From positions 1 to 32,063 of the IMG/VR virus record IMGVR_UViG_3300030047_000084: a stretch of 32,063 nucleotides of DNA. One strand, written 5' to 3'. Position numbers and translations under genes: made by a program. The first letter of the stretch is position 1; each line of letters begins with the position of its first letter. Of the stretch, positions 1,144-32,035 are shown piece after piece. Under the pieces are notes generated by a model that was given only the letters and a program-made list of their open reading frames with translations, did not search any database and had not been told where the DNA came from. This DNA comes from a virus.

Positions 1144-1966
1144 AATGGTATTGGTACTCTGCTGTTACGATACCAGTGTCGGCAACGTCGCCAGTAGAAA
1201 GAATAAAGCTATTTTGTCCGCAAGGTAAGATTAAAAAATCTCCCCCAAGTTCTGACATTTTATTATTGCCAGCATTGTCTAAAACAGACTCGTTGTAAAT
1301 ATCAATAATACGGCTTGCCCCTGAGTTGATGGTAGCGTTTACTGTCATAGATTTTTGATTGATGACATCGACCAAAGTCGGAGTTGTCAATTTTCCTGAG
1401 AAAGTAAATTTAGGGAAAGCCCAAACATTACCACCGACAAAAAAGTCGGTTGTAACTGCTGAACCTGACGACATATTGAGAGGGAGAGCAAAAGGAATGG
1501 CGAAAGTGCCACCTTTTCCAATCGTGATGATTTGTTGATATTTTTGTTGACTGACAAAAAAAGGATATTCGGCTTGACAATTATATTGAATGGCACTCGA
1601 CATAATATCGTTTGAACTCAAATCGTTGCTGTTGCCCGTTATCATAGCGTCGAGAGTTAGTATCGAGCCATTGTCGAGAGTTACAACGATAGCGATTTTA
1701 TCAGAGTCGGCGTAGTAGCTTGGAGTCAAATATTTTTCCAATAAAAGACGTTTGTCGGCGTGGTCGGCTGGGTCTCTGCCGTTAATAAAAACAGTAAAAC
1801 TAAAAGTTTTCCCACCAAATCGAGATTTACCCAAGACGACACCGTGCCTCTGTAAAATATCAGAGACAGAGTATTTCTTAGTGAAAGGATTTGAGAGACC
1901 TTGGACGATGTAACCAAAACCGTCGGCGTCTTGGACTAGGTCGAGACCATTGATATTGAATTTCAT
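1130..1966 (-). CDS. Distal tail (Dit-like) protein
   Basis: This 278-residue protein follows the tape measure gene, where siphoviruses encode Dit. The N-terminal half has the usual pattern of a tail-tip ring protein: a short opening (MKFNINGLDLVQDADGFGY), then a KRLLLEKYLTP segment and a beta-rich galectin-like C-terminal half. Dit forms the ring between tail tube and baseplate. Its ATG shares one base with the tape measure stop (TAATG at 1968-1964), a stop-start coupling. Its 3' end overlaps the hub gene. The assignment combines synteny with size; the sequence match to the family was judged by eye only. Confidence 0.7.
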   Translation of the reverse strand: MKFNINGLDLVQDADGFGYIVQGLSNPFTKKYSVSDILQRHGVVLGKSRFGGKTFSFTVFINGRDPADHADKRLLLEKYLTPSYYADSDKIAIVVTLDNGSILTLDAMITGNSNDLSSNDIMSSAIQYNCQAEYPFFVSQQKYQQIITIGKGGTFAIPFALPLNMSSGSAVTTDFFVGGNVWAFPKFTFSGKLTTPTLVDVINQKSMTVNATINSGASRIIDIYNESVLDNAGNNKMSELGGDFLILPCGQNSFILSTGDVADTGIVTAEYQYHYVSI

Positions 1967-4188
1967 TAGTAAGAGTAATTTAATTTATAATTTAATTTTG
2001 ACATCATAGTATCCCAATCCATAGGGTTATTTATGATTGCCTCAATTTTAATTTCGTTTGATTTACTGCTTTGTTGATTGACAATATTACTAGGTACTGG
2101 GGTTCTACCTCTCAACATATCTTTTGATAAAACGAACTCGTCTTGATGGACAACAGCGAGACCAGTCTTTTTGACCCAGCCCCCTTTTTCGTACCAGTCG
2201 ACATTCATTGTAGGATAATTGATTTCGTGTCCCGCTACTGTTGTCGAACCTGAGCCGAGAGAAAGGTGAGGAAATTTAATCTCTTTGAGAGCGTTGACAA
2301 TTCCTGACGCCATATCTTTGAATTTTTGTAGAATTTTTCCAGCGACGTCGGTTATCTTTGACCAAATAGCGTCCATCTGATTACCGAGCCAATCGAAAGC
2401 CTCTTTAATTGGAGTCATTACGGCAGTCTTGACCCCGTTAAATGCCTCTGTAAATTTAGCCCAAATCTTCGTTAAAACATCAACTATGAAAGTCCAAGCG
2501 GTAGTCAAAGCCCCTGAAATTGCCTCATAAATTACTTGGAAAATACTAACTAAGAAAGTCCAAATTGTCGTAAAAGTAGTAACAAAAAAGTTGTAGACGT
2601 TGGTAAATATCATCACTATAAAATTCCAAACCTCAGTAAATACAGTAACTATCCCGTTCCAAACGGTAACAAAAAATAATGATATTGCGTTCCAAATCAA
2701 AGTTAATTTTTCATTGATTACTTGTAAAACTGCCATCAATTTGACTCCGACAGTGTCCCAAAGTTTTTGTAAAATGCCAGCGATAAATTCGTAGATAGTC
2801 CAAAAGACAATCTGTATCCCAGCCCAAATCATTTCACCGATGAATTTTATTACTGTCCAAATCCCATTAAAAACATAAGAGACGACTGTATAAATAGCGT
2901 TAAAAATTGTATAGTAAAAATTAAAATAAAAGGTAAGATAGGCAACAATTATATTTTTAATTACATCAAATACAGTCTTGACGACATTGGCAATACCATT
3001 AAAAACAGTCCTGACCGCAGTCAAGGCGTTGTTAAATCCTGTTTTAATTCCATTGACGATTTGATTTACTTTCGAGGTTACTGAGTTCCATAAATTAGTG
3101 AAAAATCCCCCGACTGTTGAGAGTGCCGTAGTTACGAAAGTTTTTATTGCGTTCCCGATATTGACGAAAAATGCTTTGACTGAGTCCCAGTGTTTGACGA
3201 GTTCGTAAATTCCGAAAGCTAAGAGGGCGACACCAGCGACGACTAATAAAATTGTCCCGATTATAGGTAACATTGTCCCCGTCAGCATAGCAAACCCAGC
3301 CCCGAGAGCTGGTAACATAGCGATTAAAATTAAAAGTGGACCGACTATCAAACTGAAAGCGGTAACAATTAAAGTCCCGATTGCTACAAATTTAACGATG
3401 TTCGGATTTAGATTGTTGATTACTTCGAGCAATTTAATTAAACCGCCTTGGAATTTTTCCCAAAGAGGCAATAATTGACCGCCGAGTTTTTCTTTTTGGT
3501 CTTCGAGTGCGACTGAGAGATGAGCTTTCATACCGTCAGCGGTATTTAGAGCCACCTCGTTGGTGAATTTTAAATTTTGAGCGAAACCCTGATTGATTGC
3601 GTCGACCTTTTGCTGTTCAGTTCCGAATTGAATGAGCTTTTGTTGAGCGTCAGTGAAACGGATACCTGATTTTTCCAAAACTCCGAATTGACCGTTTAAA
3701 GCCTTGGCTATCATATTGGCAGATTGAGAGAGTTGGTCGCCACTGGCAGAGACACCAAATTGATTGACTGCCAAATCAGCAAGCGAACCGCCCAAATTTT
3801 GAACGGCTTTATTTGATAGACCGAAAGTTGATAATTGAGCGAGTCCGATTTTGATGTTGTCGCCGTCTAGGACACCTTTTTTTTGTAGAGCGTCAGCTAA
3901 CGCCTCGGTTTGTGAGAGTTGGTCTTTGGTGGCGTGAGAGACACTAATAACAGCGTGTTCGAGCTGAGCCTGAGCGGTTTCTACCTCACTGGCTTTGTCA
4001 ATCCAATCTTTCATCATCGCAACCCCAGCAACGCCGACACCCGTCAAAATACCGCCAGCAATTTTTAAATTTTGCGACCATTGACCAGCCTTTTTTTGAT
4101 TATCGTCGAGAGTATCCGAGAAATTTTTTAAAACAGACGACGCCTCATCTTGGGCTTGAATTAAAATATTAAGTGGGACGTTTTCCAT
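1966..4188 (-). CDS. Tail tape measure protein
   Basis: This 740-residue protein is the longest in the window. It has an alanine- and glutamine-rich helical N-terminal part (about residues 1-240, including the segment ETAQAQLEHAVISV). A hydrophobic stretch follows (about 265-330) that could span membranes during DNA ejection. The central part (about 340-620) carries repeated tryptophan and phenylalanine heptad-like units such as VWNGIVTVFTEVWNFIV. The end has the segment GGWVKKTGLAVVHQDEFVLS, which resembles C-termini of many tape measures. It sets tail length and is ejected with the DNA. The frameshifted chaperone pair lies just upstream, the expected neighbour. Its ATG follows the motif TATAATTAAATT. 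Confidence 0.93.
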   Translation of the reverse strand: MENVPLNILIQAQDEASSVLKNFSDTLDDNQKKAGQWSQNLKIAGGILTGVGVAGVAMMKDWIDKASEVETAQAQLEHAVISVSHATKDQLSQTEALADALQKKGVLDGDNIKIGLAQLSTFGLSNKAVQNLGGSLADLAVNQFGVSASGDQLSQSANMIAKALNGQFGVLEKSGIRFTDAQQKLIQFGTEQQKVDAINQGFAQNLKFTNEVALNTADGMKAHLSVALEDQKEKLGGQLLPLWEKFQGGLIKLLEVINNLNPNIVKFVAIGTLIVTAFSLIVGPLLILIAMLPALGAGFAMLTGTMLPIIGTILLVVAGVALLAFGIYELVKHWDSVKAFFVNIGNAIKTFVTTALSTVGGFFTNLWNSVTSKVNQIVNGIKTGFNNALTAVRTVFNGIANVVKTVFDVIKNIIVAYLTFYFNFYYTIFNAIYTVVSYVFNGIWTVIKFIGEMIWAGIQIVFWTIYEFIAGILQKLWDTVGVKLMAVLQVINEKLTLIWNAISLFFVTVWNGIVTVFTEVWNFIVMIFTNVYNFFVTTFTTIWTFLVSIFQVIYEAISGALTTAWTFIVDVLTKIWAKFTEAFNGVKTAVMTPIKEAFDWLGNQMDAIWSKITDVAGKILQKFKDMASGIVNALKEIKFPHLSLGSGSTTVAGHEINYPTMNVDWYEKGGWVKKTGLAVVHQDEFVLSKDMLRGRTPVPSNIVNQQSSKSNEIKIEAIINNPMDWDTMMSKLNYKLNYSY

Positions 4189-9430: not shown

Positions 9431-9461
9431 ATTATAAACTATTTTTTTATTGTTGTGTCAA
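9431..9461 (-). promoter_or_regulatory. Promoter candidate for the major capsid gene
   Basis: The minus strand has a perfect TTGACA (9461-9456) and a perfect TATAAT (9436-9431) 19 bases apart, or TTTATA at 17 bases. The -35 lies inside the last codons of the protease gene, so capsid mRNA could be made separately from the head operon. The ATG is 33 bases downstream. Confidence 0.6.
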
Positions 9462-10199
9462 CGAGGTAAATTTTTTGAGAGTTTTCTCAAAAGTATTGAC
9501 AAACTTTTTAACTTTCTTACTTTTAATTATAGCCTTTTTTTTGTCGTCAAGGGCTTTCTTTTCATCGAGGGCTTTTTTGTCAGCTAGAGCCTTAGCCTTT
9601 TTCAACTCAGCTCTCTTTTCAATAGTAACCTCGACAGTCTTAGAAATAATCATCTCTAATTCTTTCTGAGAAAGTTTGTAGAATTTTTTTGAAAAGACTT
9701 TATATTTGACATTGAGAGATTTGACTCGGCTCAAAGTATCAGTATCAGCACCTTTCAAAGCTCTTGGATTGGCTGGGACTGGGACAACAGACAACTCATA
9801 AAGTTCGCAAGATTTAAAAGTAAATTCGCCAGTTTCGTCCCATTCTAGGATTTGGAAACCAACAGAAAAGGCAGAGAGAAAACCCTTAGCCATTAAATCA
9901 AATACCTCTTTCCCGTCTTCACTATTAGCAAATTCTAAATCGAATAAAAGTTTACCGTCCTCTACCCACACTCGAGTAGCTTTAGCGATTGGCTTAGAGT
10001 GGTAATCGTGTCCGTACAAAACAACAGGGTTATTTTTGAAATTGTCTAGTTTCCAACCCATAGGATTGATTGACTCGCCCTGTCTATCGACTGAGCCGTC
10101 AGAACCGATGACGCCTTTAATTGTCATTGATTTTTCGTCAATAACAGATTTCGATACACTGGTAAAAATGTATTTGAGTTCTTTCTTTTTAGTTTTCAT
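9447..10199 (-). CDS. Prohead protease (peptidase S78, HK97 gp4 family)
   Basis: This 250-residue protein carries the family's signature block: LYGHDYHSKPIAKATRVWV (catalytic His in the GHD segment) and then FLSAFSVGFQI (catalytic Ser). These are followed by ELYELSVVPVPANP, which is nearly diagnostic. The protease digests the scaffold or delta domains inside the procapsid. The last 75 residues are Lys/Ala-rich and helical, with repeats such as KALADKKALDEKK, so the C-terminus may serve as scaffold or self-cleavable tail. The gene lies between portal and capsid, and its start has TATAATTAAATT in front. Confidence 0.95.
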   Translation of the reverse strand: MKTKKKELKYIFTSVSKSVIDEKSMTIKGVIGSDGSVDRQGESINPMGWKLDNFKNNPVVLYGHDYHSKPIAKATRVWVEDGKLLFDLEFANSEDGKEVFDLMAKGFLSAFSVGFQILEWDETGEFTFKSCELYELSVVPVPANPRALKGADTDTLSRVKSLNVKYKVFSKKFYKLSQKELEMIISKTVEVTIEKRAELKKAKALADKKALDEKKALDDKKKAIIKSKKVKKFVNTFEKTLKKFTSLTQQ

Positions 10200-17911: not shown

Positions 17912-18319
17912 TTATTTTGATTTTTTAACAAATAAATTTTTAGCTGGTTTTTTATTGATGTCTTTAAATAAATTGTCGGCAATCGTTGGAAAAACAACCG
18001 ATTTTTTATCACCGAGACTCTTCAATAATTTAGCTTTATTACTATTCGAGAGGTAGCCACCAGTCGAGACAACTAGGACGAGACCGTAGGCGACAACGTC
18101 AACGAGAAAAATAAACAAACCGATTAAACCTTTCCAAAAACCACCGTAAAGTAGAGCAAATTTATACTCAAATAATCCCATAAAAACAGCGGTGAAAACT
18201 CCGAGAAAAATCAAGTCGATTTTAGCCTTTTTCTCGAGCTGTTTAATTAAATAATTATTGGCGGTTTCTACCGCTTTTATCATATCCTCTCGGGATATTT
18301 TTTGTTTTTTGTCTGTCAT
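17912..18319 (-). CDS. Membrane protein, unknown
   Basis: This 135-residue protein has a charged N-terminal helix (MTDKKQKISREDMIKAVETA), two membrane spans (about 36-58 and 63-87) and a polar C-terminal half. The start follows AATACAAAACA, the leader type of the early genes. It is the first gene after the non-coding RNA region, in the direction of transcription. No family recognised. Confidence 0.7.
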   Translation of the reverse strand: MTDKKQKISREDMIKAVETANNYLIKQLEKKAKIDLIFLGVFTAVFMGLFEYKFALLYGGFWKGLIGLFIFLVDVVAYGLVLVVSTGGYLSNSNKAKLLKSLGDKKSVVFPTIADNLFKDINKKPAKNLFVKKSK

Positions 18320-18361
18320 TGTTTTGTATTCTAAATAATAATAATTAAAAACTTAACTCAA

Positions 18362-18470
18362 AATAGTAGGTATAGGTCGACCTTGGAAAACCAAGTTTAT
18401 AAACCCAGTTATCTCGAGTTCTGTTTTACCCTCTGCCTATACGCATACGAGGTGGCTCTTCTCTACTATT
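18362..18470 (-). ncRNA. Putative structured RNA element of about 109 nt
   Basis: An 8-bp outer helix (AATAGTAG 18362-18369 with CTACTATT 18463-18470) stacks directly on a 7-bp perfect helix (GTATAGG 18370-18376 with CCTATAC 18436-18442). A CTTGG-AAAA-CCAAG hairpin (18382-18395) lies inside. No reading frame covers it. It lies between the tRNA and the membrane protein gene and could be the leader of that operon or a separate RNA. Strand is inferred from the neighbours. No known family recognised. Confidence 0.5.
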
Positions 18471-18540
18471 CGAAGTTAAATTTTTAATTCAAAGAGCAAA
18501 GTCGAAACCCATTTTTTGAGGATTTCAACCTCGCTCCGTG

Positions 18541-18611
18541 TTGCGGGTCTTGGAGTTGAACACAAGTCTGGTAGGGTATGAGTCTACCGTGCTACCGTAC
18601 ACTAACCCGCA
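18541..18611 (-). tRNA. tRNA-Met or tRNA-Ile2 (anticodon CAT)
   Basis: A 71-base cloverleaf reads on the minus strand. It has a perfect 7-bp acceptor (TGCGGGT / ACCCGCA) and TA at 8-9. The D arm is GTGT/GCAC with loop ACGGTA, keeping A14, G18G19 and A21. The anticodon loop is CTCATAC with U33 and A37, and the T loop is TTCAACT with C56, A58 and the G53-C61 pair. Weak points are an A-C at the base of the anticodon stem and two mismatches in the T stem. CCA is not encoded in full. It could be elongator or initiator Met, or lysidine-type Ile. Confidence 0.75.
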
Positions 18612-18616
18612 CGTTT

Positions 18617-18858
18617 TTTGATGACTACTTACAGAGGACAAGAGGCGGTTTGACGCCACAATTTAATTCCTAATTGTCGAAAGCCTCAGAGCTTGAAAAC
18701 TAGGGGTTTTTACATAACGACTAGAGTACGTCAGTCGTCAGAGATAAAATTCAATTTATCGGGTTATTGTGATGTCTCAGTGATTGTCTGAGTTGCTAAC
18801 CAAGACGGTCAGCCCAATATTTCGCTACTGCGATTATCCCCAATAAGTAATCATCAAA
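18617..18858 (-). ncRNA. Putative structured RNA of about 240 nt next to the tRNA
   Basis: A 15-position helix closes the element: TTTGATGATTACTTA at the 5' end with TAAGTAGTCATCAAA at the 3' end of the minus strand, with one U-G wobble. Inside are hairpins CTCAG/CTGAG (18776-18792), GATAAA/TTTATC (18743-18760), ACGACT/AGTCGT (18717-18738), CCTAGTT/AATTAGG (18669-18704) with inner AAGC/GCTT, and GGCG/CGCC (18644-18657). Two positions pair only as G-U on the minus strand and mismatch on the plus strand, indicating the strand. No reading frame explains it. A relation to large phage RNAs that accompany tRNAs (GOLLD, ROOL) is possible but untested. Confidence 0.65.
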
Positions 18859-18899
18859 TTTTTAATGTTCTTGTTGTTTTTGCGACAACTAAACTAATA

Positions 18900-19112
18900 C
18901 TACGGCTTGGCTTTTTCATTGTCAACTAGCAAATTATGCTCGTCGATTTTGTCGTAAATATCAATTAAAGTTTTAGCCGATGAAAGGAAACCTGAGATTT
19001 TAGCGATGTTCATTTTCGTTTTAATATCAAGCTCGTTTAATTTTGCTGTCCTGAGATACTCTGAAAATTCAAATACTCGCTCGAGCCAGCGTTTTTCGAC
19101 AGGTATAGCCAT
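18900..19112 (-). CDS. Small helical protein, unknown (70 aa)
   Basis: The product opens MAIPVEKRWLERVFEFSEYL and is predicted to be almost entirely helical, with a segment KLNELDIKTKMNIAKISGFL. Its ATG directly follows the stop of the upstream gene, so it is in the same operon. It is the last gene before the RNA region. No family or motif recognised. Confidence 0.6.
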   Translation of the reverse strand: MAIPVEKRWLERVFEFSEYLRTAKLNELDIKTKMNIAKISGFLSSAKTLIDIYDKIDEHNLLVDNEKAKP

Positions 19113-19444: not shown

Positions 19445-19897
19445 TTAAACGAGTAGAGTTTCCTGTTTAGGTTGAAATAATGAATAATCAAACTGAGACT
19501 CAAACCACGCCTCAGACCTGTTGTTATAAATTTGTCGGATATTGACCGTCTCAGGAAAATGGTCAACGACTTTATTTCTGAAAGTTTGGACTTTCTTTGG
19601 TATTGAAATTCTACCGCATAAAAACTCAGCCCCTCGATTAGTGATTAGCCATTCTTTATTTACCCATTCCCCGCCAATTCGACGTTTAGCGATTAAGGCG
19701 TGAAATCTTAGTTTGTCAAAATTTCCGTATTCTGAGTGGCTCAAATTAAGCTCATTCATTTTGAAACAATTTTTATTATTGTCTTTGACAAATTCGTAGC
19801 ATTTAGCCAGTGTCCCGACTAAACCGTTTGAGAGAGAGTGCCAGTATTTTTTTAGACTTGCCCCACAACAGGGACAATATTTTTCAGCGTCGGTCAT
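19445..19897 (-). CDS. Zinc-ribbon / winged-helix-like protein, unknown
   Basis: The 150-residue product has an N-terminal knuckle (KYCPCCGASLKKYW) and further Cys residues at about 33 and 44. A segment resembles a winged helix: FDKLRFHALIAKRRIGGEWV followed by NKEWLITNRGAEFLCG. Proteins of this layout occur in many phage early regions and may bind DNA. Its ATG overlaps the stop of the upstream gene as ATGA (19897-19894). Function unknown. Confidence 0.65.
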   Translation of the reverse strand: MTDAEKYCPCCGASLKKYWHSLSNGLVGTLAKCYEFVKDNNKNCFKMNELNLSHSEYGNFDKLRFHALIAKRRIGGEWVNKEWLITNRGAEFLCGRISIPKKVQTFRNKVVDHFPETVNIRQIYNNRSEAWFESQFDYSLFQPKQETLLV

Positions 19898-20568
19898 TTT
19901 AAAAATCTTTTTAAATAAACAAATAAATTTTCAGAAAGTACAGCCTCAATTAAACAATGCTGTTTATTTGAGATAGTAGTATCGAACCCCTCTGAGTTAT
20001 GTCCGTTCTCGTCGCTAATTCCTGTATTTATATCCCAATATGGGGTTTCGTTGTAAAATGCCTCAACAAATTTTTTGGAAAGTAAAAAACCTCTCGCTCT
20101 ATTCTCATCAAAATCAACGTCTCCGTCTGAGTGAACACAACACTCGCCATAAAAAGCCGTCAAAGAGTCGCCACCAAAATATTTTTTGAAATCTTTTGAA
20201 TTGTCCATCGCCTTTGCGATTGCGAGTTTAGTTATTTCCTCTTTGAAAATGTCGCTCTGTTGGACGCTGTTGATGTAATCTTTTGAAAATTGAACATCAA
20301 TCTCGAGTATTCCTTTCTTTTTATTCATTTTCAAAACCTTTCCGATTGGTGGCATTGACCAATTATGGTCAAAACAAATAATCGGATTATTGAGATAATT
20401 TTTTTCGTCGATGTCAAATTCAATCTGTATTTCAGACTTCATTTTTTCGTCGATAAAATTTTGACCAGTTAAAAGAGAAATTTCAAGTAATTCGACTTTG
20501 GTAATTCGGCTATATTTAGTTTCTAAAACTCTACCGCCAACGTCAAAAATATTATTGTTTTTATTCAT
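19894..20568 (-). CDS. Unknown protein with a prohead-protease-like segment
   Basis: This 224-residue protein includes CFDHNWSMPPIGKVLKM near residue 65, followed by GILEIDVQFS. This recalls the block GHDYHSKPIAKATRV...LLFDLEFA of the prohead protease at 9447-10199, with the His conserved. No clear matching Ser segment is seen. The C-terminal half has an acidic HSDGDVDFDENRARGFLLS segment. It might be an S78-like protease relative, or the similarity may be chance. It is the first gene behind the promoter at 20601-20629, and its leader contains ACAATACAAAA. Confidence 0.55.
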   Translation of the reverse strand: MNKNNNIFDVGGRVLETKYSRITKVELLEISLLTGQNFIDEKMKSEIQIEFDIDEKNYLNNPIICFDHNWSMPPIGKVLKMNKKKGILEIDVQFSKDYINSVQQSDIFKEEITKLAIAKAMDNSKDFKKYFGGDSLTAFYGECCVHSDGDVDFDENRARGFLLSKKFVEAFYNETPYWDINTGISDENGHNSEGFDTTISNKQHCLIEAVLSENLFVYLKRFLK

Positions 20569-20600
20569 TTTTGTATTGTATGTAATGTATAACTAGATTT

Positions 20601-21760: not shown

Positions 21761-22366
21761 TTAGATTGATAAACATTTAATTTGAGCTAACATTGACTCA
21801 ATCTGAGCGATACCGTCATTGACCCCAGCCTCTATTTTGGCGATGGCGTCCTCGTCTCGGGTTACTCTCTTGATAATTAGCTTTTTAGGAAAACGAGGAT
21901 TATGGACGAGGTAATCACACCACTGTCGCCCAGTAACCCAAAGTTGATATTGAGTTTGCCAATAATGACCTGAGTCAATTTTGTCGTCCAACATTTCCAA
22001 TACGAAAAGATAGCCAATTTTATTTTTAATTTCAACGAGTCCGTCCTCTCCGACCATACCGTCAGGCGACGCACCTGACCATTTATCCCTCTCACAAAAA
22101 CCAACACAATCGACAATATTCCCAGTTTCCAATTCGTAGGCAATACGGGCGTCGTCCTCGAGAGTGTGTCCGTTTTCCATAAATTGATTTGTGTAACCGT
22201 TTTCCTCTGCCTCACCTGTTAAGATTTCAGCGACTTTCTTGGCGACGAGGGTTTCCAGTCCCTTTCCTCGAGTAGCGATTGCCTGAGCGTCGCTGGCTGT
22301 CAATTTTCCACATCTAATTTGAAACCACTCGGGAGAGTTCTGATTGATTTCGTTATGGACTATCAT
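21761..22366 (-). CDS. YqaJ-type (lambda exonuclease-like) viral recombinase nuclease
   Basis: The 201-residue product has the family signature: an opening of QNSPEWFQIRCGKLTASDA, then MENGHTLEDDARIAYE, SGASPDGMVGEDGLVEIKNK and HYWQTQYQLWVTG. The catalytic D (SPDG) and E-x-K (VEIKNK) are intact; the usual Cys after K is Asn here. It resects DNA ends 5' to 3' and hands the strand to RecT. Its ATG overlaps the RecT stop as ATGA (22366-22363). Confidence 0.95.
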   Translation of the reverse strand: MIVHNEINQNSPEWFQIRCGKLTASDAQAIATRGKGLETLVAKKVAEILTGEAEENGYTNQFMENGHTLEDDARIAYELETGNIVDCVGFCERDKWSGASPDGMVGEDGLVEIKNKIGYLFVLEMLDDKIDSGHYWQTQYQLWVTGRQWCDYLVHNPRFPKKLIIKRVTRDEDAIAKIEAGVNDGIAQIESMLAQIKCLSI

Positions 22367-23181
22367 TGTTTTGTCTCCTCGACAGGTGTCTCTTTGGTTT
22401 CGTTTTTAAATTGCTCTCTTTTGAGTTTGTATTCGGCGGTTACTAATTCTCTAAAATCCTCACCTTTCTCAGCAATAACGACTCTACAAATTTCGTTTAA
22501 TTCTTTCATATCTTTGGCACTTTGGATTTTATCGACACTAGCCCCGTCGAGAGCTAAAACTTCGCCCTCAGTAATTACCTCAGCACCCTCGGTCTTTTCA
22601 GTGGCAGTCAGTGGTTTTGGTGGCATTTCTGAGGCGTCATAAACACCATCAAAAAGGTCAGGGAAAGCCCCAGTATAAGCCTGAGAGAGAGCGACTTTTT
22701 GTATCATTGTGTCGGGTTTATCTCTCCATTGTTTATTATCTTGTTTGTATTCAGAAAAAGGACAGGTTACTTTAAAAGGTTCGTTTCTGTCGGTTCGTTT
22801 GACCTCAGCCATAGCTCCCCAAAGAGTGCCATTTTCCCAAGCCTCACATCGAACACCGTCTTTGGTATAGATTGCCTCTTTTTTAACGTATTCGACTTTA
22901 TGAGTGGCGGTGGCTATTCTAGCCTTTCCATCTTTTCCAGCAATAAAAACGAGTTGTCTTTGGTTTTTGCTGTTGGTCGTTGAGTATGAGGTAACTTCGC
23001 CGTTTAAAACATTGAGACCTAAATTTTGAGCTTTGTATAAAATCAAAACTATCTCATTGTCGGTCAGGGTTGGAAATACTGTATTTTTGAGAAATTTATA
23101 TGTCTCAACGCTCAGGGTTTTTTTAATTTTGTTTAACTCACCGATATTTTCAGCGAGTGTGATTTGATTGCTTTTTGTCAT
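22363..23181 (-). CDS. recT: RecT single-strand annealing protein
   Basis: The 272-residue product matches the RecT family: LTDNEIVLILYKAQNLGLNV, EVTSYSTTNSKNQRQLVFIA, KDGKARIATATHKVEYVKKE, KRTDRNEPFKVTCPFSEYKQ and DTMIQKVALSQAYTGAFPDL. It anneals single-stranded DNA in phage recombination and end-joining. The C-terminal 60 residues are acidic and probably flexible. The leader contains ACATACAATACAAAACA. It forms a coupled pair with YqaJ. Confidence 0.95.
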   Translation of the reverse strand: MTKSNQITLAENIGELNKIKKTLSVETYKFLKNTVFPTLTDNEIVLILYKAQNLGLNVLNGEVTSYSTTNSKNQRQLVFIAGKDGKARIATATHKVEYVKKEAIYTKDGVRCEAWENGTLWGAMAEVKRTDRNEPFKVTCPFSEYKQDNKQWRDKPDTMIQKVALSQAYTGAFPDLFDGVYDASEMPPKPLTATEKTEGAEVITEGEVLALDGASVDKIQSAKDMKELNEICRVVIAEKGEDFRELVTAEYKLKREQFKNETKETPVEETKQ

Positions 23182-23928: not shown

Positions 23929-24705
23929 TTAGCGAATGTCAGTAGCCTCGTAAACTTTAACCCCAGCAATAACTCTGACGCCTGATTTTATTGCCTCGTT
24001 GATTTTCTTACTATCGCTCGAGCAGAATTGACGAGGGATTTGGTTTTCGTCAATAATTTCGTACGTCCAGCGTTTAGTAACACCTTTGATTTTTTCAGTC
24101 TTGGCTTTTTCCTCGGCGTCCTTTTTATTCTTTTCTGTTAATTCAGCGAGTGCTTTTTCGTCGGCAATTCGTTTTTTCTCAGCGTCTAAATCTCTCTGTT
24201 TTTGAGCGAGGTCTAATTTTTCCTGTTCTAGTTTTGCTCTCTCGTCTGACATTTTCTTTTTATCAGCGTCGAGTTTTCTCTGTTCAGCGAGTCTCTTTTC
24301 TAATTCGATTTTTGCGAGTCTGTCCTGTTCGGCTTTGATTTTGGCTAATCTTTCAGCCTCAATTTTTGCCAATCTTGCCTCTTCGTCCTTACGCTTTTTT
24401 TCTTGGATTTCGTTAAAAGTCAAAATTTTCTCTTTGACAATAATTTTAATATCAGCGAAAGGTTTAGAAACTATCCTGAAAGAGTTATTTATCTCGGCAA
24501 TTTTATTGTTAATTGGTCTCACGATTGCCGTTCTAGTCTCTTCAATTTGTTTTTCCGAGTCCTGACATTGTTTTAAAATTAAGCTCGCCTCTTGGGACTG
24601 TTCGATAGTCTCAACTTTTAAATCTTTGGCTTTCTTTTCTAATTCACCAGCCAAAATGATGAATGGTTTTACAGTCCTGTCGACTGTTGCGATTTCGTTT
24701 GTCAT
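23929..24705 (-). CDS. Long coiled-coil protein upstream of recT, unknown
   Basis: The 258-residue product has a folded N-terminal part (about 1-100, with a VRPINNKIAEINNSFRI segment), then a continuous charged helix (about 105-205) made of Lys/Glu/Ala/Leu repeats such as ERLAKIKAEQDRLAKIELEK. A C-terminal domain follows (KRWTYEIIDENQIPRQFCSS). Proteins with this layout are common just before recT or erf genes and are thought to support recombination or replication. The leader contains CAATACAAAACAAA. Confidence 0.75.
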   Translation of the reverse strand: MTNEIATVDRTVKPFIILAGELEKKAKDLKVETIEQSQEASLILKQCQDSEKQIEETRTAIVRPINNKIAEINNSFRIVSKPFADIKIIVKEKILTFNEIQEKKRKDEEARLAKIEAERLAKIKAEQDRLAKIELEKRLAEQRKLDADKKKMSDERAKLEQEKLDLAQKQRDLDAEKKRIADEKALAELTEKNKKDAEEKAKTEKIKGVTKRWTYEIIDENQIPRQFCSSDSKKINEAIKSGVRVIAGVKVYEATDIR

Positions 24706-26202: not shown

Positions 26203-26231
26203 ACTTTAGGTTATAACAAAACCCGTGTCAA
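26203..26231 (-). promoter_or_regulatory. Promoter candidate for the replication gene
   Basis: TTGACA (26231-26226) is followed after 17 bases by TAAAGT (26208-26203), a weak -10. The predicted transcript would begin at about 26196, just at element 1 of the leader. It lies ten bases after the upstream gene's stop. Confidence 0.5.
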
Positions 26232-29947: not shown

Positions 29948-30931
29948 TTAAGCAAGTTGACCAGCGACAGAACCGCCGTCGAAATAATAAACGCTACCTA
30001 CCTTTTTGTAACAGAATAGGAAAATAGCGTCAGTTTGTCCGACAACATCTGAAAAATCAGGAATAGCACCGCCAGCCCACAAGATAGGTAATGAGCCGAA
30101 AGTTGGGGTATAACCACCAGTACCAGCCTGAACAAATCTGAGATAAACACCTTTACCAACTGCTACGTTTGAGAGAGTAATAGCTTTGTTAGTGGTCAAA
30201 GTAACTGTATGACATTTAATTCCAAAGTCGAGAGCTGAGGTTGCCCCGCCATCGTCGACAGGTTCGTCGATTGATTGAATTTCAATAGGGTTGGTATCAC
30301 TGACGCCTTTAATAAAGAGACGAGATTTAGAGCCATTATTTTTTAAAACGACGTTTGCTTTGGCAGTGTCAGGGGTGTCGATTAAAGTTTGCTCGGATAA
30401 GTTAAGACCACCAAGAAAAGAGAAAAGACAACTAGGTCGGACGTCGGTAATCATTGAGGCACCGATTTGAGAGTATCCAGTAGGTAAGGCAAGATTTGAC
30501 AATCTAACGAAAGGTTTATTTGCCCCGATTGCGTTAGATATTTGAGTATCGGTTGGTATGACTGGGCTAGCGTCGGGAGTTCCATCGACACTCGTAAAAA
30601 TTAAAATATTACTACCGTCAGAGTTTACAGTTGCCCCGATGTTTAAATAAGCGATGATTGTTGATATTCTGTTTGTCCCTGAATTATTAGCCGAGACAGT
30701 AACCTCGAAATCAGTAGTCGAATAGCCGTGTAGAGTTTTGCCACTAAATTTAAAAACACCATCACCAACAGGGACGACAACTTTATTACTCAGAGGATTA
30801 GCGACGCCGACTTTCCAGTGGGACGCTAAATCAAAGACACCCGATTTCTGAGTGATTGCGTGTAATAAACGTAAAAATTGATTTTCAGTGAGAGCGGACG
30901 CTCCCGATATTCCTGTTACTAGATTTGCCAT
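29948..30931 (-). CDS. Baseplate / fibre protein, unknown family
   Basis: The 327-residue product opens MANLVTGISGASALTENQFL and is rich in Gly, Ala, Ser, Thr and Asn, with a beta-structured middle containing NKVVVPVGDGVFKFSG. A C-terminal part with KAITLSNVAVGKGVYLRFVQ resembles late domains of phage fibre proteins. It starts with TATAATTAAATTATG and lies at the outer edge of the invertible-looking collar region. A fibre or baseplate role is inferred from composition and position. Confidence 0.65.
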   Translation of the reverse strand: MANLVTGISGASALTENQFLRLLHAITQKSGVFDLASHWKVGVANPLSNKVVVPVGDGVFKFSGKTLHGYSTTDFEVTVSANNSGTNRISTIIAYLNIGATVNSDGSNILIFTSVDGTPDASPVIPTDTQISNAIGANKPFVRLSNLALPTGYSQIGASMITDVRPSCLFSFLGGLNLSEQTLIDTPDTAKANVVLKNNGSKSRLFIKGVSDTNPIEIQSIDEPVDDGGATSALDFGIKCHTVTLTTNKAITLSNVAVGKGVYLRFVQAGTGGYTPTFGSLPILWAGGAIPDFSDVVGQTDAIFLFCYKKVGSVYYFDGGSVAGQLA

Positions 30932-30976: not shown

Positions 30977-31468
30977 GTGTCTTACAATAGCTTTTTTGCG
31001 ACCTTAACAGGTATTATTTTTCCTTTTGCTGGGTCTACCGCACCAACAGGGTTTTTGCTTTGTAATGGGTCAGCAGTTTCTCGCACAACATACGCCAGTT
31101 TATTCGCAATAATTGGAACAAATTACGGGGCTGGAAATGGTACGACTACATTTAATTTACCTGATTTTTTAGGTAAAATCCCCGTTGGAAAGTCGACTGA
31201 CACTGAATTTAACGCACTCGGAAAGACAGGCGGAGAGAAAAGTCATAAACTTACTACAACGGAAATGCCAGTCCACGCCCATAGTTTTAACAGTGGGGCT
31301 GATACCTATGGTTTTGCTAGAATGTCGGCACAAGCAAACCAATATTTGGCTGGGAGTGGCTCAACGAGAATTAAAGAGGATTACACTACTATTGCCAACG
31401 CTGGGGGCGACGGTAACCACAATAATATTCAACCTTACAACACCGTAAATTATATAATTAAGTTTTAA
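30977..31468 (+). CDS. Alternative tail-collar cassette, probably silent, plus strand
   Basis: This 163-residue frame (first usable start GTG at 30977) is homologous to the opposite-strand collar gene. It has YNSFFATLTGIIFPFAG, APTGFLLCNGSAVSRTTY, GTTTFNLPDFLGKIPVGKS and the end NNIQPYNTVNYIIKF, typical of phage tail-collar (microcystin-dependent-protein-like) domains. No ATG, Shine-Dalgarno or promoter is visible. The frame is open from 30923, and the N-terminal hinge region of the other copy is missing. It converges on and overlaps the other gene's 3' end by 11 bases. Best explained as a stored cassette that inversion would join to the expressed N-terminus. Confidence 0.75.
   Translation: MSYNSFFATLTGIIFPFAGSTAPTGFLLCNGSAVSRTTYASLFAIIGTNYGAGNGTTTFNLPDFLGKIPVGKSTDTEFNALGKTGGEKSHKLTTTEMPVHAHSFNSGADTYGFARMSAQANQYLAGSGSTRIKEDYTTIANAGGDGNHNNIQPYNTVNYIIKF
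30992..31006 (+). repeat. Inverted repeat arm, outer pair (with 31941-31955)
   Basis: TTTTTTGCGACCTTA is present here and as its exact reverse complement at 31941-31955. Both copies encode the FFATL segment of the two collar frames. The pair flanks 31007-31940. Confidence 0.8.
31037..31056 (+). repeat. Inverted repeat arm, inner pair (with 31891-31910)
   Basis: The 20-base sequence ACCGCACCAACAGGGTTTTT occurs here and as its exact reverse complement at 31891-31910, in surroundings where the two genes have diverged. It encodes the APTGFLL segment in each. Its perfect conservation marks it as a candidate crossover site. Confidence 0.85.
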
Positions 31469-32011
31469 TGATATAATTTATCGTAATATACGGCTGAATA
31501 TTGTTGTGTGCTAGACCACTACCAGTATTTTCCATAACACCACCATTACCTCTCATTGGTGGGTTTGGTCTATCAGTAGCACCAGCCTGAGTGATTGAGC
31601 CAAGCCAAGACGTATCATCTGGCAACCAACCAGAGTCTACATTGTGTGAATAAGCTCTCATTCTATGGCTATGAGCTGGTATTTGGGTAACGTCGAGCGT
31701 GTTAGTTTTTGCCCCGCCAACTTGTCCAAGAGTCGCAAACTCAGTATCGCTAGATTTACCAACGATTACTCTACCTCGAGCGTCGGGAATATTGAAAGTC
31801 GTTGTCCCGTTTCCTACTCCGTAAGTAGTGCCTATCTTAGCAAATAAAGCCGAGTAGGTTGTCCTTGATATGGCTGAGCCATCACACAATAAAAACCCTG
31901 TTGGTGCGGTTGCCCCAGCATAGGGGAAAATCGCCCCGACTAAGGTCGCAAAAAATTCATTGTACGTCGTTAAATTTACTTTGTTACCCAAAGCGGTTGA
32001 TAAATCAGTCT
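31458..32011 (-). CDS. Tail collar fibre protein, main part (starts at 127 across the joint)
   Basis: This holds residues 43-226 of the collar fibre whose N-terminal 42 codons lie at 127-1. After the hinge DQTDLSTALGNKVNLTTYN come FFATLVGAIFPYAG, PTGFLLCDGSAISRTTY, TFNIPDARGRVIVGKSSD and the end NNIQPYITINYIIKT, the tail-collar domain pattern. The Met inside GNK (31991) is only a GTG-like internal position, not the true start. The domain sits at the tail tip in many phages and contacts the host. Two inverted repeats are shared with the opposite-strand cassette. Confidence 0.88.
31891..31910 (-). repeat. Inverted repeat arm, inner pair (with 31037-31056)
   Basis: This is the reverse complement copy of the 20-base repeat in the expressed collar gene. 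Confidence 0.85.
31941..31955 (-). repeat. Inverted repeat arm, outer pair (with 30992-31006)
   Basis: This is the reverse complement copy of the 15-base repeat, near the boundary between the constant N-terminal part and the variable collar domain. Confidence 0.8.
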
Positions 32012-32035
32012 GGTCGCCAAGAGTTCCAGTGATTG
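32012..32035. repeat. Terminal direct repeat (circle joint), right copy
   Basis: This is an exact copy of bases 1-24. The true continuation after it is base 25 onward (CCCCCCAAAT), not the G-run that follows in the window. Confidence 0.9.

Follow-up and report, generated by a model that had tools for sequence, protein, structure and literature searches.

A candidate structured RNA module flanking a tRNA gene on the minus strand of a small metagenomic phage

Genomic setting of the non-coding stretch

The window, meaning the whole stretch of DNA analysed here, comprises 32,063 bases of the virus record IMGVR_UViG_3300030047_000084, and its genes lie on the minus strand almost throughout. Tape measure, major capsid, head protease and portal proteins mark it as a tailed phage; RecT, a YqaJ exonuclease, HNH proteins and a DnaD-like helicase loader are also encoded. 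A record of the same species, IMGVR_UViG_3300028862_000107 (L016), spans from window position 32035 to position 1 and bridges the two ends, so that the genome is circular or circularly permuted, close to complete and ~32 kb in length. Metagenomes are the only source from which this small bacterial virus is known. Two side observations concern variation within the species. Region 19885-20580 is hypervariable: in an otherwise >99.9% identical record (L002, L117) ~120 bases are replaced or missing, with 94.7% identity beyond, a difference that suggests recombination of an early gene. The blastn comparison of the window with a same-species locus also returned additional matches of 228 nt, 70% identical, at window positions 30983-31210 and 31737-31964 (plus-strand coordinates), located at the tail-collar protein region and the genome junction, which are possibly a duplicated tail-fibre segment.

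Between the early block at 19-31 kb, which holds the recombination and replication genes (RecT, YqaJ, DnaD-like), and the lysis and structural block at 0-18 kb, with its membrane-protein and structural genes, lies a non-coding structured stretch of 516 nt (18343-18858); both neighbouring groups of genes are on the minus strand. The minus-strand fold of 18330-18885 consists of four units arranged end to end without overlap, each closed by a helix of its own: a multibranch RNA (RNA1, 18617-18858), a tRNA-Met gene (18540-18611), a hairpin of 18 bp (18493-18537) and RNA2, a further closed domain (18343-18489). An earlier note on this DNA had reported no reading frame in the region of RNA1, and this agrees with the ORFs touching 18340-18890, the longest of which is 44 aa.

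A sigma-70-type promoter, TTGACA-17 nt-TAGTAT, is predicted at 18897-18925 on the minus strand by a strict pattern match, with transcription expected to start near 18890, ~30 nt upstream of RNA1. On the minus strand there are four matches to TTGACA-17-TANNNT (at 26231, 25309, 20629 and 18925) versus 0.24 expected, and on the plus strand of the window there are none; the 20629 match immediately precedes the start of a gene. In a scan of the region with a general promoter consensus, scores did not rise above those of shuffled sequence, and the signal is confined to the strict pattern. The spacer of the 20629 promoter is a palindrome, CCGCCCGAATAGGGCGG, and that of the 25309 promoter contains CCGTTAGAAACGG; both look like repressor sites within promoters.

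Many of the minus-strand genes lack a Shine-Dalgarno sequence (e.g., 1966-4188, 9447-10199, 29948-30931, 22363-23181 and 23929-24705). Motifs resembling TATAATTAAATT-ATG open the late genes, and motifs resembling ACAATACAAAACA-ATG open several of the early ones; an unusual host might use these as start-site or promoter elements. The idea that AT-rich motifs before the starts denote leaderless genes was dropped, as the TTGACA promoter of one early gene sits further upstream. The next gene after the structured stretch, with its start at 18319, carries a start motif of its own, like other early genes.

Structure and strand of the four units

RNA1 is a closed multibranch structure of 242 nt. Its closing helix P1 pairs 18843-18858 (5' arm) with 18617-18632 (3' arm) over 16 bp, including two G-U pairs, with a mean pair probability of 0.97, and both arms are paired in this way in the joint fold. 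A single U-U mismatch separates P1 from helix P1b, in which 18834-18841 (5' arm) pairs with 18634-18641 over 8 bp, again with two G-U pairs (mean pair probability 0.96). The earlier note had described a 15-position closing helix (18617-18631/18844-18858) and at least six internal hairpins; the helix is real and extends to 16 bp plus the 8 bp past the mismatch, and seven hairpins are enclosed. These are H1 (18822-18833, UCGC-AGUA-GCGA), H2 (18795-18813, 7 bp, mean pair probability 0.99), H3 (18776-18792, 5 bp with a 7-nt loop, 0.98), H4 (18743-18760, 6 bp, 0.73), H5 (18715-18740, 9 bp, 0.95), H6 (18669-18704, 7+2+5 bp, 0.90-0.97) and H7 (18644-18657, GGCG-UCAAAC-CGCC, 0.93). H4 is the least certain of these; a rival helix, UAUUGG/CCGAUA, can be read from the sequence at this site, and folding with DNA parameters gives another alternative, UAUUG with CAAUA. 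Candidate loop-loop contacts within RNA1 (UUGA of H4 with UCAA of H7, or self-complementary ACGU or GUAC in the H5 loop) were rejected as chance-expected given seven loops.

The fold energy of RNA1 is beyond chance, with z-scores of -7.4 to -8.1 on the minus strand. For 18610-18865 the minus strand folds at -84 kcal/mol (z -7.42; 0 of 200 shuffles as good), versus -70.5 kcal/mol (z -4.24) for the plus strand, and for the exact interval 18617-18858 the corresponding z-scores are -8.07 and -4.27. RNA1 was missed by a genome tiling in 240-nt windows, no single one of which contained all of it.

The tRNA-Met gene (CAT anticodon) begins 5 nt past RNA1 on the minus strand and scores 37.7 bits, where the gathering score is 29. 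It has no encoded CCA, and its Rfam alignment shows a T stem with a bulged U as well as an A-C beside the anticodon loop, features by which the tRNA may be atypical or defective. Other phage tRNAs have been shown to serve translation or to evade tRNA-cutting defences (PMC10264068, PMC11555353), and the tRNA-Met here may do either. Beyond it lies the 18-bp hairpin, a possible RNase III site, which has 18 consecutive pairs in the joint fold, five of them G-U, and a 9-nt loop; z for 18490-18541 is -5.4 on the minus strand versus -1.8 on the plus strand. RNA2, of 147 nt on the minus strand, is closed by a helix of 17 bp plus 9 bp and holds two inner hairpins, with a helix GUAUAGG/CCUAUAC stacking directly onto the closing helix. 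A possible H-type pseudoknot, ACCUC/GAGGGU, was read by eye. Taken alone RNA2 is the weaker case, with a z-score of -4.3.

Considered as a whole, the 556-nt stretch 18330-18885 has a z-score of -10.09 (about -10) on the minus strand versus -2.9 on the other. Its energy relative to shuffled sequence, -54.8 kcal/mol, is the extreme among 105 minus-strand tiles of 556 nt covering the whole genome (mean -4.7, sd 9.1), and the best tile not overlapping it is 24.6 kcal/mol below its shuffles; one of the 105 tiles was positioned on the stretch, which makes the comparison slightly favourable to it, and the margin is wide. The earlier note had confined the structured RNA to 18617-18858. Structure is present there, and those boundaries are too narrow, as the structure continues through the tRNA to 18343.

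The strand is also indicated by the wobble pairs. The predicted helices of RNA1 contain nine G-U pairs on the minus strand. When helices were defined by strand-symmetric rules, which allow G-U and A-C positions equally inside helices, 18330-18885 read on the minus strand exhibited 10 G-U and 0 A-C positions, whereas other regions average 3.8 G-U and 3.7 A-C per 556 nt, with a largest difference of 7. The minus-strand RNA is read as the selected strand because wobbles tolerated only there are the trace expected of such selection. The earlier note had pointed to G-U pairs on the minus strand that are mismatches on the plus strand, and in this it was right and understated. Its broader claim of a structured minus-strand non-coding RNA adjoining the tRNA is well supported by the folding energy, the strand bias and the upstream promoter.

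Relatives and known RNA families

The sole homologue of the stretch is a near-identical record with one substitution. This falls at 18832 (C to U on the minus strand) within H1 and changes a C-G pair to U-G, so that the pair is kept in the minus-strand RNA and would break in a plus-strand RNA; as a single event it lends weak support to the minus strand. Comparison of 18320-18900 with phage and plasmid records by blastn gave chance pieces only. Scans of viral contigs with TerL, the 283-aa protein, a portal segment, RecT and a portal profile brought up nothing beyond same-species records and portals of 22-30% identity, and three RNA patterns searched across viral contigs matched the known record and otherwise by chance. 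Three loci with nhmmer E-values of 0.026 to 1.6 (L144, L149 and L154) were set aside as chance matches, as they share an unrelated common context and have neither the closing helix nor a tRNA. A covariance model built from the single RNA1 sequence (R1) recovered only the known record, both among 45 records and among 200 genomes of one phylum; this phylum was guessed, and the latter search carries little weight. A scan of genome contigs with the portal segment gave one 28% match and no clue to the host. In sum, no diverged homologue came from blastn, from peptide or RNA patterns, from nhmmer applied to the fetched loci or from the R1 model, and the case for the structure rests on one sequence plus one substitution.

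The earlier note had raised a possible kinship to GOLLD or ROOL and called for a search with Rfam covariance models. At gathering thresholds Rfam 15 identified only the tRNA in the window, with nothing else credible at E<=5. The GOLLD (RF02032) and ROOL (RF03087) models searched directly at E<=10 found no match in the genome, the ROOL search being one in which no positive control matched. Kinship with either family is not supported. There was likewise no match to a group I or II intron, tmRNA, RNase P RNA or 5S rRNA with the Rfam or ARAGORN models, and ARAGORN ruled out the stretch as a tmRNA. That no known RNA family fits suggests a new viral structural RNA.

Proposed function and comparison with known systems

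The stretch is best regarded as a genuine structured RNA module, specific to one strand, that resembles none of the known families searched. The computed features, namely structure beyond chance, strand, a promoter-class match, the absence of ORFs and the absence of a known family, stand as observations; from them we infer that the module is transcribed and processed, and that its products are stable and have a function. We favour, with fair confidence, the reading that 18343-18858 is a promoter-driven phage non-coding RNA operon, processed into two stable structured RNAs and a tRNA that would act in trans. RNA polymerase would start near 18890 at the stretch's own promoter and produce a single precursor in the order RNA1, tRNA-Met, 18-bp hairpin, RNA2. 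Since the tRNA starts 5 nt after RNA1, its maturation by RNase P, cutting at the tRNA 5' end, would itself release the 3' end of RNA1, a step that would be weakened if the tRNA, with its T-stem bulge, is defective. The long closing stems and the 18-bp hairpin are probable targets for RNase III or a comparable nuclease, by analogy with pre-rRNA stalks. The RNase P release together with the RNase III-like stems argues for a precursor of two stable, compact RNAs plus the tRNA. RNA1 would most likely act in trans as a scaffold or a binder of proteins of the host RNA machinery, as has been proposed for GOLLD and ROOL; its architecture, and the occurrence of GOLLD and ROOL too as phage RNAs near tRNAs, are what point to a function in trans. 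A more specific version, offered tentatively, is that RNA1 and RNA2 are two undescribed classes of structured RNA, made on one transcript around a tRNA and freed by processing stems, forming an RNA-only operon in a 32-kb genome that would serve as a scaffold or host-factor trap.

Other explanations were weighed against this operon. The stretch might instead be a cis-acting leader, antiterminator or stability element between the early and the lysis and structural blocks, through which polymerase reads with the tRNA as a passenger. Its location, between recombination and replication genes and membrane-protein and structural genes that are all on the minus strand, would suit such an element, as would the finding of no strong intrinsic terminator on the minus strand between the stretch and the next gene. 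We regard it as unlikely, since a complete central tRNA gene with separately closed domains on either side suggests excised products, and the gene at 18319 has a start motif of its own. That the inverted repeats work as dsDNA or cruciforms, in an origin, recombination or packaging site, is highly improbable: 27-nt inverted repeats at 85% are present and the DNA fold also beats shuffles (z -4.75), yet such a function would be strand-symmetric, whereas 10 of 10 wobble positions favour the minus-strand RNA, the folding energy is strongly one-sided and the predicted promoter points into the stretch.

A divergent GOLLD, ROOL or other known large phage RNA missed by Rfam, with the tRNA in a linker between 5' and 3' domains, would account for the phage location, the tRNA-Met neighbour and the multibranch domains, and some GOLLD linkers do hold tRNAs, and env-38, a GOLLD RNA, has a Met-tRNA upstream of it (PMC12286853). 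This too is improbable, with neither model matching even at E<=10 and with a total of 516 nt against >800 nt for many GOLLD RNAs, and 242 nt for RNA1 against ~570-660 nt for ROOL. The atypical tRNA with its bulged T stem and the anticodon-arm-like shape of H3 (5 bp and a 7-nt loop) recall a former tRNA array or intron, now functionless and structured by descent. We think decay of this kind very doubtful, as long unbroken helices with wobbles favouring only the minus strand would not outlast it, and neither a second tRNA nor an intron was recognised in the genome by ARAGORN or Rfam.

Few bacterial RNAs are as poorly understood as the large structured ones that lie beside phage tRNAs, and GOLLD and ROOL, for which cage building was shown only recently, are still without an assigned function. 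If the operon reading is true, a compact 516-nt module of two RNAs and a tRNA under one promoter in a 32-kb genome would offer an example that is smaller and easier to study, and such RNAs would not be limited to the long families already in Rfam. Single-genome signals such as energy, wobble polarity and a promoter can flag RNAs that lack the relatives needed for comparative methods.

GOLLD and ROOL are phage RNAs that occur near tRNAs and form cages (PMC12286853), the GOLLD cage being a homo-oligomer. Like GOLLD, the present module is phage-encoded, non-coding and multidomain, and lies next to or around a tRNA gene; many GOLLD members, however, exceed 800 nt and have a conserved 3' domain of known sequence, whereas this stretch has 516 nt and no RF02032 match. 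ROOL is similarly a phage or prophage RNA near tRNAs, highly structured and with no known protein partner (PMC12286853). The ROOL model has 574 positions, and its members measure ~570-660 nt and share a conserved kissing-loop core; RNA1 at 242 nt is less than half that length and the whole stretch, at 516 nt, is also shorter. The tRNA gene cluster of T4 encodes stable non-tRNA RNAs of ~100-140 nt (species 1 and 2, RNA C and D) that are cut from a tRNA precursor; RNA1, likened to these by description, is larger and multibranched. In bacterial pre-rRNA operons, long imperfect stems close the RNAs, a tRNA lies in between, and there are RNase III and RNase P sites. Although the stretch is not ribosomal RNA and has no Rfam rRNA match, the long stems closing RNA1 and RNA2, together with the 18-bp hairpin, resemble the RNase III stalks of these operons.
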